A stretch of 64,000 nucleotides of DNA from Paenibacillus sp. JDR-2 (GCF_000023585.1 NC_012914.1:3378001-3442000); one strand, 5' to 3'. Counted from the stretch's first letter, positions 5,842 to 9,830 are shown. Program-made: numbers and translations. The notes: a model not told the origin generated them from the letters alone.

Positions 5842-6615
5842 ATGGCGAATGACAAACCAAATCAGCCGCAGGACGAATCGCGCAGAAGGTTCCTTAAATA
5901 TTCCGGTACAGCCCTTGGCGGAGTAGTGCTAGGCGGGGTCATCGGAGGACTTGTAGGCTCGAATCTGAAACAGACGGAGAAGGAAGCAACTCCGGAACCC
6001 GGCAAGTCGGGAACAGCACCAGAGAATAAAGACTATAACCAGGCGTTAATGTTCTTCAACCAGGATCAGTTCCTCACGGCGGAAGCTGCTGCCGAGCGGC
6101 TGTTCCCGCAGGATGATCTAGGACCCGGCGCGAAAGAGCTGGGGGTAGCCTTCTATATCGACCATCAGATGGCAAGCGCCTATGGCACCAATGCCAGGGA
6201 CTACATGCAACCGCCTTATTATAAAGCGGAAGCTACGCAGGGCTACCAGCTGGTCTTTAAACGAAGAGAGCTTATTGCACTGGGGCTCGACGCAATGAAT
6301 CAGTACAGCAATACGAAACATCAGAAGCCATTTGTAGAAATTACGCCGGAAGAGCAGGATGCGGTGCTGACGGCCTTCGAAACGGATAAGACGGAAATCA
6401 AGGATATTCCCGCGTCCAACTTTTTCGCAATGTTCCTTAACCTGACGCTCGAGGGAGCTTACTCCGACCCGCTTTACGGAGGCAACCGAAATATGGCGGG
6501 CTGGAAAATGAGAAACTTCCCCGGCAACCAGATGAGCTATACCGATTACATCGAGAAAGAAGAGTTTGTAAAACTTGAACCATTAAGCTTGCATGATCAT
6601 CTTGAGCTTGGGTAG
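5842..6615 (+). CDS. Gluconate 2-dehydrogenase subunit 3-like protein, Tat signal
   Basis: A 257-residue small subunit of the gluconate-dehydrogenase type (GADH subunit 3 family). The N-terminus carries a textbook twin-arginine signal, SRRRFLK at residues 13-19, followed by a glycine-rich hydrophobic stretch (GTALGGVVLGGVIGGLVG), so it is exported folded. The mature part has family features such as LTAEAAAERLFPQDDLGPGA near residue 75 and YGGNRNMAGWKMRNFPG near residue 210. In known enzymes this subunit has no redox centre and carries the flavin subunit through the Tat pathway. The catalytic partner follows 17 bases downstream and lacks its own signal, fitting that role. Confidence 0.9.
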   Translation: MANDKPNQPQDESRRRFLKYSGTALGGVVLGGVIGGLVGSNLKQTEKEATPEPGKSGTAPENKDYNQALMFFNQDQFLTAEAAAERLFPQDDLGPGAKELGVAFYIDHQMASAYGTNARDYMQPPYYKAEATQGYQLVFKRRELIALGLDAMNQYSNTKHQKPFVEITPEEQDAVLTAFETDKTEIKDIPASNFFAMFLNLTLEGAYSDPLYGGNRNMAGWKMRNFPGNQMSYTDYIEKEEFVKLEPLSLHDHLELG

Positions 6616-6632
6616 AGAAGGGGTGAAGCAAA

Positions 6633-8354
6633 ATGGCAACTAAACTTCCAAAGGTTCCCGTCGTTATTGTCGGGATGGGCTGGGTTGGCGGCATTATCGC
6701 TTCCGAGCTGACGAAAGCCGGTATTTCCGTTGTAGGTCTGGAGCGGGGCAAAAGCCGGGATACACAGGATTATTACCATGTTCACGACGAACTCCGCTAC
6801 GCATCCCGTTATGAGCTGATGCAGGATTTGTCCAAAGAAACGGTCTCCTTCCGCAACTCAATGAAAATGAGAGCATTGCCGATGCGGACATACGGATCGT
6901 TCTTGCTGGGGGAAGGTTTGGGAGGCGCGGGGGTTCACTGGAACGGTCAATACTACCGCTTCCTGCCTTACGACTTTGAGATTTACAGCAAGACGGTTGA
7001 GCGTTACGGCAAGAAGAAGATTCCGGAGAACATGACGATTCGGGACTGGGGTATTACGTATGAGGAGCTTGAGCCGTACTTTGTGAAATACGAGCAGATG
7101 TCCGGCATTTCCGGCGAGACGGAATTGCCTCCGAATATCGGTAAAATGTCCAAGCCGTTTGCAACGGGTCCAATGAAAAAGTCTCCGGGCATGAAGTTGT
7201 TTGAGGACGCAGCCAAAAAGCTTGGCTACCATCCTTATGTCATTCCTTCGGCCAACTTGTCCGAACCTTATAAGAATCCAGACGGTGTAGAGAGAGCGCC
7301 TTGCCAATATTGCGGGTATTGCGAACGATTTGGCTGCGAATACGGCGCAAAAGCGGACCCGGTTGTTACCGTCCTTCCGGTCGCGAAGCAAACGGGCAAG
7401 CTTGATCTCCGCATGCATTCCAATGTGACCCAAATCATTCACGACGGCAAGAAAGCAACCGGTGTCACCTACGTACATACACCAACCGGAGAAGAGTACA
7501 CGCAGCCGGCCGACGTAGTTATTCTCGCAAGTTATCTGTTCTCGAATGTAAGGCTTCTTCTGCTTTCCAAGCTAGGCAAGCCTTACAATCCCGAGGCGGA
7601 TACCGGCGCGGTTGGCAGGAACTATGCTTATCAGGTGAACGGTGCCAGCACCAGCGCCTTCTACGAGGACCGTGAATTCAACCTGGCGATGGGAGCCGGC
7701 GCGCTCGGAAGCAGTATCGATGATTTTAACGGCGATAACTTTGATCATAGCGATCTGAAGTTTTTGCACGGCGCGAATATCCGGTTCACGCAGACGGGGC
7801 TTCGGCCGATTCAGTATCAGCCGGTTCCGGCCGGTACGCCGAAGTGGGGCGCCGAATTCAAGAAAGCGACGATCCATAACTCGAACCGTGTGCTATCGGT
7901 TGCTGGACAAGGCGCAAGCATGCCGAACCGTTATCATTATCTGGACCTTGATCCGGAGTACAAGGACGCATTTGGTTTGCCGCTTATCAGGATGACTTTC
8001 GATTTCGAAGATCAGGACCGCGAGCTCGTGAAGTTTATTGCCCAGAAGACAAAGGACATCGCGGACCAGATGGGTGGAACCAAGACGGAGATCCATGACT
8101 CCATCAAGCAGTATAATATCGTTCCTTATCAGTCTACCCATAACACGGGTGGTACGATTATGGGATCTGATCCCAAGACTTCCGTCGTTAACAACTATCT
8201 GCAAATGTGGGATGCGGAAAATGTTTTCATCTGCGGAGCTTCCAACTTCCCGCACAACAGTGGATACAATCCGACGGCCACCGTTGGCGCATTGGCTTAC
8301 CGGACGGCCGAGGGCGTTCAGAAATATATGAATAAAGGCGGTTCACTCGTGTGA
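6633..8354 (+). CDS. GMC-family flavoenzyme, gluconate 2-dehydrogenase-like large subunit
   Basis: A 573-residue GMC oxidoreductase. The FAD motif VGMGWVGGIIASEL is near residues 13-26. The C-terminal active-site region has the paired His and Asn of the family (STHNTGGTIMG, then PHNSGYNPTATVGALAYR). A cysteine cluster Cys224, Cys227, Cys230 and Cys235 (CQYCGYCERFGC) lies in an insertion; three-cysteine versions in FAD-dependent glucose dehydrogenases hold a 3Fe-4S cluster next to FAD. The natural substrate could be gluconate, another sugar acid, an aldose or a polyol. There is no signal peptide, so it probably travels with the Tat-bearing small subunit. No cytochrome c subunit is encoded nearby. 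Confidence 0.9.
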   Translation: MATKLPKVPVVIVGMGWVGGIIASELTKAGISVVGLERGKSRDTQDYYHVHDELRYASRYELMQDLSKETVSFRNSMKMRALPMRTYGSFLLGEGLGGAGVHWNGQYYRFLPYDFEIYSKTVERYGKKKIPENMTIRDWGITYEELEPYFVKYEQMSGISGETELPPNIGKMSKPFATGPMKKSPGMKLFEDAAKKLGYHPYVIPSANLSEPYKNPDGVERAPCQYCGYCERFGCEYGAKADPVVTVLPVAKQTGKLDLRMHSNVTQIIHDGKKATGVTYVHTPTGEEYTQPADVVILASYLFSNVRLLLLSKLGKPYNPEADTGAVGRNYAYQVNGASTSAFYEDREFNLAMGAGALGSSIDDFNGDNFDHSDLKFLHGANIRFTQTGLRPIQYQPVPAGTPKWGAEFKKATIHNSNRVLSVAGQGASMPNRYHYLDLDPEYKDAFGLPLIRMTFDFEDQDRELVKFIAQKTKDIADQMGGTKTEIHDSIKQYNIVPYQSTHNTGGTIMGSDPKTSVVNNYLQMWDAENVFICGASNFPHNSGYNPTATVGALAYRTAEGVQKYMNKGGSLV

Positions 8355-9094
8355 GCAAACAGACCGATACGATCGAAAGCGATCTGATCAGTCATTTGTC
8401 CGAGCTCCGCAAACGCCTTATTTATGTGGCAGGCTGGTTTTTGGCATCCTTGTGCGTAGGCCTGTATGCAGCGCCTAAAATTTTGACTTTCGTCAAAGGA
8501 CATCTGGGTGCCATTGAAGTGGAGTGGAGCGTATTTGCGCTCTCGGACGGCATTGCGGTGTATATGAAATGCGCGCTGCTCGTCGGTATTATTCTGACGC
8601 TGCCGTTTCTCATGTACCATCTATGGGCATTTGCAAGACCGGGCATGACGGATGCCGAAGCAAAGAGCACCTTGGTCTATGTGCCAACTTCGTCCTTGCT
8701 GTTCGTAAGCGGTGTGTTATTCGGTTATACCGTAGCCCTGCCGATGATGATCCGGTTCATGATCAAGCTGAACCAATCGATGGGAGCTCAAGAGGTATAC
8801 GGGATCCAGCATTACATGTCATTTCTGATCAGTTTCCTGCTGCCCATGGGTGTTGCTTTTGAAATGCCGCTCGCAATGACATTTCTGACCCGAATCGGGA
8901 TGCTGACTCCAGACAAAATGAAGCAGGTTCGAAAATTTGCGTATGTAGGTCTGGCGGTTGTGGGAACACTTATCTCACCTCCGGATTTTGTATCCCATTT
9001 GTCCGTGACCGTTCCACTCATTCTGCTCTTCGAGATCAGCGCATTTATCTCGGCGCGTTACTATAGGCGGAAGTTTGCCGTACAAACGACTTAA
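8351..9094 (+). CDS. tatC: Twin-arginine translocase subunit TatC
   Basis: A 247-residue membrane protein with six hydrophobic segments. The N-terminal segment DLISHLSELRKRLIY matches the TatC signature (hleELRxRl), and a conserved region FEMPLAMTFLTRIGMLT follows helix 4. TatC is the receptor for twin-arginine signal peptides. It begins with GTG overlapping the flavoenzyme stop by 4 bases, so it is translationally coupled to its likely cargo. That linkage resembles phoD-tatAdCd of Bacillus subtilis and suggests a dedicated translocase. Confidence 0.95.
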   Translation: MSKQTDTIESDLISHLSELRKRLIYVAGWFLASLCVGLYAAPKILTFVKGHLGAIEVEWSVFALSDGIAVYMKCALLVGIILTLPFLMYHLWAFARPGMTDAEAKSTLVYVPTSSLLFVSGVLFGYTVALPMMIRFMIKLNQSMGAQEVYGIQHYMSFLISFLLPMGVAFEMPLAMTFLTRIGMLTPDKMKQVRKFAYVGLAVVGTLISPPDFVSHLSVTVPLILLFEISAFISARYYRRKFAVQTT

Positions 9095-9109
9095 TTGTGG
9101 AGGGATTTT

Positions 9110-9310
9110 ATGTTTAACAACGTAGGGATTTCAGGGCTGATTATTATTCTGGCTATCGCTTTGATCGTATTTGGACCGGCGAAGCTGCCTCAGCTTGGAC
9201 GGGCCTTTGGCGATACGCTGCGCGAGTTCCGGAATTCAACAAAAGGCATTGCCGATGATGAACCGGAAGTCAAATCCAACATTATTGAACTCGAACAGAC
9301 GAAAAATTAA
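9110..9310 (+). CDS. tatA: Twin-arginine translocase subunit TatA
   Basis: A 66-residue TatA/E protein: one N-terminal transmembrane helix (ISGLIIILAIALIVFG), the hinge FGPAKLPQLGRAFG, and an amphipathic helix (LREFRNSTKGI) followed by an acidic tail. TatA forms the transport pore with TatC. The start at 9110 is chosen because GGAGGG (9098-9103) precedes it at normal spacing; the upstream TTG would lack one. It follows tatC by 15 bases. No tatB is present, as usual in Gram-positive minimal Tat systems. Confidence 0.94.
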   Translation: MFNNVGISGLIIILAIALIVFGPAKLPQLGRAFGDTLREFRNSTKGIADDEPEVKSNIIELEQTKN

Positions 9311-9332
9311 AAGTTTAAAGGAGATAGCTGCT

Positions 9333-9785
9333 ATGAAGATCAATAAGCTGCTTATGATTGCCGCTCTTGCCGTAACCGTAATGGGAACGGCTGCAGGCTG
9401 CGGATCAAGCTCGGACAAGAATAACAATAATGCGAATACGGGCGCAACCAATAATGCCGGTACCAATGCAGGCACAAACGCAGGAACCAATGCTGGCAAT
9501 AATGCCGCAGGCGGAGGCGGATCTAAGGCGATCACAATCAAAGCGAAAAACTTCGAATTCGATCAGCCGGAAATCCGTGTTAAACAAGGCGACAAAGTAA
9601 AAATCACCCTGAGTAACACGGAAGGCTTCCATGGCTTCGCGATTCCGGATTTTAACGTCGATATCAAGGAAAATAACGGGGTTGCAGAATTTACAGCCGA
9701 CAAAACCGGTGAGCATGAATTCCATTGCTCGGTTGTCTGCGGTGCTGGCCACAGCAAGATGGTCGGGAAGATAATTGTAGAATAG
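9333..9785 (+). CDS. CuA-type cupredoxin lipoprotein
   Basis: A 150-residue predicted lipoprotein. The signal peptide ends in lipobox TAAGC (Cys23). A flexible spacer of Asn, Gly, Thr and Ala with NAGT repeats follows (about residues 28-63), then a cupredoxin domain. The domain holds the full ligand pattern of a binuclear CuA centre as in cytochrome oxidase subunit II: His100, Cys132, Cys136, His140 and Met143 (C-x3-C-x3-H-x2-M). No oxidase subunit I is nearby and no transmembrane helices are present. Last in the flavoenzyme-tat cassette, it is a plausible extracytoplasmic electron acceptor; this role is inferred. It could instead be an independent copper protein. Confidence 0.88.
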   Translation: MKINKLLMIAALAVTVMGTAAGCGSSSDKNNNNANTGATNNAGTNAGTNAGTNAGNNAAGGGGSKAITIKAKNFEFDQPEIRVKQGDKVKITLSNTEGFHGFAIPDFNVDIKENNGVAEFTADKTGEHEFHCSVVCGAGHSKMVGKIIVE

Positions 9786-9800
9786 TGTTGAGTAAGCTAG

Positions 9801-9830
9801 GAAAGCCGCGGAATCCGCGGCTTTTTGTTT
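9801..9830 (+). terminator. Terminator closing the flavoenzyme-tat-CuA operon
   Basis: AAAGCCGCGG-AATC-CGCGGCTTT followed by a T-rich run. This is the first terminator after 5842, which supports one transcript for all five genes. Confidence 0.9.

Follow-up and report, generated by a model that had tools for sequence, protein, structure and literature searches.

A Tat-linked flavin dehydrogenase cassette of Paenibacillus with a CuA lipoprotein as its predicted electron carrier

Which protein takes electrons from an exported flavin dehydrogenase when no cytochrome c is encoded with it? The question is raised by a five-gene cassette in a 64,000-nucleotide stretch of the Paenibacillus sp. JDR-2 genome (GCF_000023585.1, NC_012914.1:3378001-3442000), the whole of which is referred to here as the window. 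The cassette encodes a small subunit with a twin-arginine translocation (Tat) signal, a GMC-family dehydrogenase predicted to carry flavin adenine dinucleotide (FAD), the translocase components TatC and TatA, and a lipoprotein with all the ligands of a CuA centre. Gene content, operon layout, ligand conservation and the replacement of one carrier gene by another across relatives can be read directly at the sequence level. We consider it likely that the cassette specifies an exported flavin dehydrogenase complex with a membrane-tethered CuA protein as its electron carrier. It would then be a variant of the known FAD-dehydrogenase complexes in which a stand-alone CuA lipoprotein is the predicted carrier.

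The unit spans 5842-9785 of the window on the plus strand, with intergenic gaps of 17, -4, 15 and 22 bp in gene order. Its features, with expectation values (E) from Pfam, are as follows.

5842-6615, plus strand: small-subunit gene; Gluconate_2-dh3 (PF13618), E 1.2e-32; TIGR01409 Tat signal over its cut-off
6633-8354, plus strand: large subunit, GMC-family FAD dehydrogenase; GMC_oxred_C, 2.5e-19, and GMC_oxred_N, 7.5e-11
8351-9094, plus strand: tatC; TatC (PF00902), E 5e-56; TIGR00945 over its cut-off
9110-9310, counted from the ATG, plus strand: tatA; TatA_B_E (PF02416), E 4.7e-19
9333-9785, plus strand: CuA lipoprotein gene; Cupredoxin_1, 1.8e-6, and COX2, 4.8e-5
9800-9826, plus strand: intrinsic terminator of the unit, a 12-pair hairpin followed by a T-run

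An earlier note on this DNA had described five same-strand genes with short or overlapping junctions and one terminator, and its coordinates, domains and Tat motif were borne out by open reading frame (ORF) calls, Pfam and NCBIfam searches and the hairpin. The tatC gene starts with GTG and overlaps the stop of the GMC gene by 4 bp. A TTG-start ORF at 9171 was considered as the start of the CuA gene and ruled out, since it is the ATG at 9333 that is preceded by a ribosome-binding site and followed by the signal peptide. The same gene order was found in many genomes and is therefore far from a chance arrangement.

The lipoprotein is 150 amino acids long and consists of a signal with the lipid-attachment residue Cys23, a linker of about 40 residues rich in Asn, Gly, Thr and Ala, and a CuA cupredoxin domain at residues 66-150. 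The predicted copper ligands lie at two places.

9630-9632, plus strand: His100, the fifth CuA ligand
9726-9761, plus strand: CuA ligand loop C132-SVV-C136-GAG-H140-SK-M143

An alignment of 21 family members shows no variation at any of the five ligands, and the residue numbers first assigned to them (His100, Cys132, Cys136, His140 and Met143) proved exact. Among solved structures, the lipoprotein is closest to the CuA domains of N2O reductase and cytochrome oxidase subunit 2 (E 1e-8), and a structure model with a predicted local distance difference test score (pLDDT) of about 95 across residues 66-150 matches their fold. COX2 and NosZ thus have the same cupredoxin fold and the same full set of His/Cys/Cys/His/Met ligands. 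In contrast to those proteins, however, the window protein is a stand-alone lipoprotein on a flexible linker, outside any oxidase or N2O reductase. It scores far below the cut-off of the CoxB and NosZ models, and a Pfam search of the five operon genes showed none of them to encode an oxidase or NosZ.

We compared the cassette with related loci. A phylum-wide scan of 398 genomes found no orthologue beyond the window's own genome at E <= 1e-90, and sampling was therefore moved to the family and to a collection of named genomes. In the family sample, 41 of 150 genomes hold a GMC orthologue whose identity is at least 64%. Forty loci from this sample were joined to 80 named loci from public genomes (out of 590 stretches encoding a relative); removal of identical sequences left 110 distinct loci, window included, whose gene content was scored by blastp and motif. 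The co-occurrence check proposed in the earlier note was positive, with small subunit and GMC enzyme together at 109 of the 110 loci, so these two genes are not scattered in relatives; the carrier is less constant. A c-type cytochrome lipoprotein is present at 57 loci, a CuA lipoprotein at 20, and no recognised local carrier at 33; no locus has both. The cytochrome genes occur in several places, namely upstream on one or the other strand, beyond a divergent tatA/tatC pair, or immediately after the enzyme gene, and whatever their position their products share one design: a lipid-bearing Cys, a low-complexity linker and a single haem-c motif and domain. The CuA gene always lies just behind the Tat genes. 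Wherever a CuA cassette was measured, the gene runs in the same direction as tatA, which it overlaps or from which it is separated by no more than about 70 bp; on the ground of this shared direction, chance adjacency was rejected. The proposal that CuA takes the place of cytochrome c is therefore supported by orthologous cassettes, which carry one or the other and never both. Comparative data, and not the motif alone, support the reading that the CuA lipoprotein stands where relatives would use a tethered cytochrome c.

On the GMC tree, well-supported branches demand four or more changes of the CuA state. The cassettes with CuA are spread over separate clades, with P. glycanilyticus and P. sacheonensis in one, the pair Brevibacillus migulae and Cohnella kolymensis in another, and P. 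cookii and P. rhizosphaerae in a third. P. cellulositrophicus has two cassettes, one with a cytochrome (L143) and one with CuA (L156). A single origin of all cassette CuA proteins was not rejected by the approximately unbiased (AU) test (p 0.21), and for this reason several independent recruitments of CuA were not adopted as the explanation.

A different lipoprotein was seen near the small-subunit gene, mostly divergent from it, at 24 loci without CuA. It is about 230-290 amino acids long and has an SSHLESRL-like motif; examples are L066:3362-4075, L077:3324-4061 and L163:4327-5022, with 21 further loci. Two of these proteins were searched against Pfam and gave no match above the cut-off.

The Tat signal of the small subunit reads SRRRFLK, with the arginine pair at residues 14-15, and R14, R15 and F17 are invariant in 15 aligned orthologues. 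A stricter pattern test found the motif in 113 of 119 sequences, the six failures being wrong ORF picks or K-R variants. The subunit contains a long hydrophobic stretch, rich in Gly, in which no A-x-A cleavage site is obvious and which is possibly an uncleaved membrane anchor. A single-protein search of the PDB with the small subunit gave no match, and its profile matched there only over the signal-like stretch, so no structure was used. The GMC enzyme has no signal peptide of its own. Its best solved relatives are fructose dehydrogenase (2.6e-38) and FAD glucose dehydrogenase (7.3e-21) by phmmer, and a profile comparison with fructose/glucose dehydrogenase gave 3.2e-35. Two of its sites bear on the cofactors.

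6936-6938, plus strand: GMC His102, predicted covalent-FAD histidine; invariant in 110 of 110 orthologues
7302-7337, plus strand: GMC C224-x2-C227-x2-C230-x4-C235, predicted Fe-S site; none of the four Cys varies among the 110 orthologues

His503 is likewise invariant in all 110. His102 was matched, by position in a conserved motif, to His105 of the Burkholderia cepacia FAD glucose dehydrogenase, which appears linked to FAD (PMC6719666). Three of the four cysteines align with the cysteine motif of fructose dehydrogenase, whose pattern is the same as that of the 3Fe-4S ligands Cys212, Cys218 and Cys222 of the B. cepacia enzyme (PMC6719666). These residues back the assignment of FAD and an Fe-S cluster to the large subunit. 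Cys227 is a fourth invariant cysteine, additional to those of the 3Fe-4S enzymes. In the B. cepacia enzyme Cys213 is disulfide-bonded to the small subunit (PMC6719666); the window small subunit has no cysteine, so this bond cannot form and Cys227 would be available as a fourth ligand of the cluster. For the GMC enzyme this leads to the prediction that the cluster may be of the 4Fe-4S type. A natural fusion of Gluconate_2-dh3 and GMC domains was also seen elsewhere in the host genome, at C1 621,265-623,376 (L013:1015-3126); this single protein of 704 amino acids has no obvious Tat signal and is apparently a cytoplasmic version.

We infer the following for the export of the enzyme and the loading of its cofactors, for its class of substrate, and for the path of electrons to a final acceptor. 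The GMC subunit would take up FAD and the Fe-S cluster in the cytoplasm and bind the small subunit, whose Tat signal would carry both folded proteins out through TatA and TatC made from the same transcript; the small subunit would probably remain in the membrane as an anchor. Outside the cell, the enzyme would oxidise an alcohol group of a sugar, polyol or sugar acid, and electrons would pass from FAD through a surface Fe-S cluster to the CuA centre of a protein kept at the membrane by a lipid anchor on a long flexible linker. The CuA lipoprotein would thereby fill the role of the tethered c-type cytochrome found in most related cassettes with a recognisable carrier, and would hand electrons to the respiratory chain. 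Among the products of the host genome are a caa3-type oxidase subunit II (CtaC), a c-551-like lipoprotein and a bc-type reductase that bears a haem-c motif; a second oxidase subunit II seems, over the portion read, to have no CuA ligands. The last step is most likely a handover of electrons by the CuA lipoprotein to the caa3 oxidase. Taken as a whole, the carrier exchange is supported by the comparison of loci, and the electron flow is plausible.

The Tat genes pose a question of their own. Pfam and NCBIfam place the cassette pair in the minimal TatAC type, with TatA and TatC present and no TatB. The earlier note held this pair to be dedicated to its cargo. Both genes are linked to the enzyme at 94 of the 110 loci, in same-strand as well as divergent layouts, which speaks for such a bond; 10 loci have TatA alone, 6 have neither, and the host genome has three TatC genes, two of them beyond the cassette. 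The linked pair might instead be an extra copy of a general translocase, not specific to the cargo and kept by chance linkage. We doubt this explanation but take it seriously: the two other TatC genes and the incomplete loci fit it, whereas the frequency of the linkage across both layouts does not, and there is a precedent for a cargo-linked pair in Bacillus subtilis TatAdCd, which is co-expressed with its only known cargo PhoD (PMC6708511). The cassette resembles that system in its minimal TatA/TatC pair co-expressed with one cargo, and differs from it in the cargo itself and in having cargo complex and electron carrier in one operon. Because the linkage is strong and not universal, dedication of the cassette pair to its cargo is plausible from gene neighbourhood. 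The general-translocase explanation touches this part only and is compatible with a CuA carrier.

A second Tat/cargo cluster was seen in the host genome at C1 about 5,918,900-5,922,700 (L098:7900-11678). Its genes are tatC, one for a flavin amine oxidase with a Tat signal (PF01593), one for a RidA-like protein (PF01042) that has a signal-like stretch at its N-terminus, and tatA. Since the amine oxidase adjoins another tatC and tatA, this genome has two cases in which a Tat pair is linked to a redox cargo. With RidA exported next to an exported amine oxidase, reactive imines could be quenched extracellularly.

CuA lipoproteins are not confined to the cassette. Relatives' genomes hold two to five each, mostly unlinked to the cassette enzyme, and some of the genes diverge from lipoproteins of the pyrroloquinoline quinone (PQQ) dehydrogenase beta-propeller family (PF01011, E 1e-77 to 1e-83). 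Against the NCBIfam model PQQ_enz_alc_DH the adjoining quinoproteins reach E of about 1e-90, yet stay below the model cut-off. A search of the 150 family genomes for such quinoproteins gave 18 loci in 13 genomes; a CuA gene lies within 1.5 kb of the quinoprotein gene at 14 of these, and a small c-type cytochrome lies within the same distance at none of the 18. The loci viewed for this pairing of a lipoprotein quinoprotein with a divergent CuA gene were L222, L224, L229, L233, L234 and L238-L255, and the quinoprotein/CuA pair is sometimes followed by a lipoprotein of about 390 amino acids with a CarboxypepD_reg domain. This linkage to a second enzyme class, predicted to be PQQ-type, lends independent support to the idea that CuA lipoproteins may serve exported dehydrogenases.

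The abundance of unlinked copies also suits a rival account, in which the CuA lipoprotein carries electrons for respiration in general (for example, from the bc complex to caa3) and merely happens to be co-expressed with an enzyme that feeds several carriers and has no specific CuA partner. The 33 loci without a recognised carrier and the separate c-551-like lipoprotein of the host fit this account too. Nonetheless we judge it unlikely, as cassettes exchange CuA for cytochrome and the operon linkage recurs, both of which point to specific pairing, and other CuA lipoproteins adjoin a different exported dehydrogenase. A role as copper chaperone or buffer, or in protection from oxidative or copper stress, with the enzyme an oxidase or a donor to menaquinone, is very improbable: copper-handling lipoproteins do exist in Bacillales (PMC13068155) and PmoD is a CuA protein outside an oxidase that may have another role (PMC6189053), but the full five-ligand set is invariant and typical of electron transfer sites, and the slot is filled in relatives by a haem protein, a cytochrome being no copper chaperone.

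Several observations weigh against an exported dehydrogenase with a tethered CuA protein as its carrier, or narrow that proposal. The absence of a recognised local carrier at 33 of the 110 loci implies that an unlinked carrier can serve the enzyme, which might also have other partners where a CuA protein is linked. Several CuA lipoproteins also occur in genomes that have no cassette CuA gene, so the family is broader than the cassette role. A single ancestral CuA cassette followed by repeated loss is compatible with the AU result (p 0.21), which leaves the number of replacements uncertain. The window lipobox, A-A-G-C, is less typical than those of relatives. Finally, the structure model of the GMC enzyme has a mean pLDDT of 61 and is low around the cysteine loop; because it is poor, Fe-S geometry was left unread.

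Compared with gluconate 2-dehydrogenase, Gluconobacter fructose dehydrogenase and the B. cepacia FAD glucose dehydrogenase, the cassette has the same GMC subunit with a covalent-FAD histidine and Fe-S cysteines, a Tat-signalled small ('hitchhiker') subunit, and a separate electron-carrier protein. It differs in the extra invariant Cys227, in the Tat genes of its operon and in the carrier, which is a membrane-bound three-haem cytochrome c subunit in the known complexes, a single-haem lipoprotein in the window's relatives and the CuA lipoprotein in the window. One defining feature, a cytochrome c subunit encoded with the enzyme, is absent, so the cassette would work like a member of these complexes without being a standard one. 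Copper proteins that act where cytochrome c can serve are familiar from the plastocyanin/cytochrome c6 pair, from amicyanin with methylamine dehydrogenase, and from azurin. Plastocyanin, amicyanin and azurin have single-copper type 1 sites, in contrast to the dicopper CuA ligand set of the window protein; the role of amicyanin with methylamine dehydrogenase has been described (PMC12723479). PmoD of methanotrophs is likewise a CuA-type protein outside an oxidase or N2O reductase, but its CuA site lies between two monomers and uses a different ligand set (PMC6189053), whereas one domain supplies all five ligands here. In quinol NO reductases the CuA subunit is part of the enzyme (PMC3475470). 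A search of open-access literature found no paper joining Gluconate_2-dh3 proteins with TatC and none on a stand-alone CuA lipoprotein with a dehydrogenase; subscription journals lie largely outside such a search, which makes both negatives weak evidence.

The surroundings of the cassette were inspected for a clue to the substrate, and the neighbours on either side include no sugar genes. Upstream, by eye, are a PadR-type regulator and two small membrane or adhesin-like proteins; downstream is an O6-methylguanine methyltransferase gene. The host genome is 7.18 Mb in size, and the nearest named GMC orthologue, among the matches listed, is that of P. glycanilyticus at 98% identity.

If the proposed pairing is true, enzyme and carrier would form a small, haem-free pair for use on bioelectrodes, and a cluster of unnoticed cupredoxin genes would be explained. 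For the family as a whole, we lean towards the reading that CuA lipoproteins are general tethered extracytoplasmic carriers in Paenibacillaceae, serving several exported dehydrogenases and interchangeable with tethered c-type cytochromes. CuA would then be a free-standing respiratory shuttle as well as a domain of cytochrome oxidase and N2O reductase, and a natural CuA lipoprotein that swaps with cytochrome c would extend the electron carriers of Gram-positive bacteria by a new kind.

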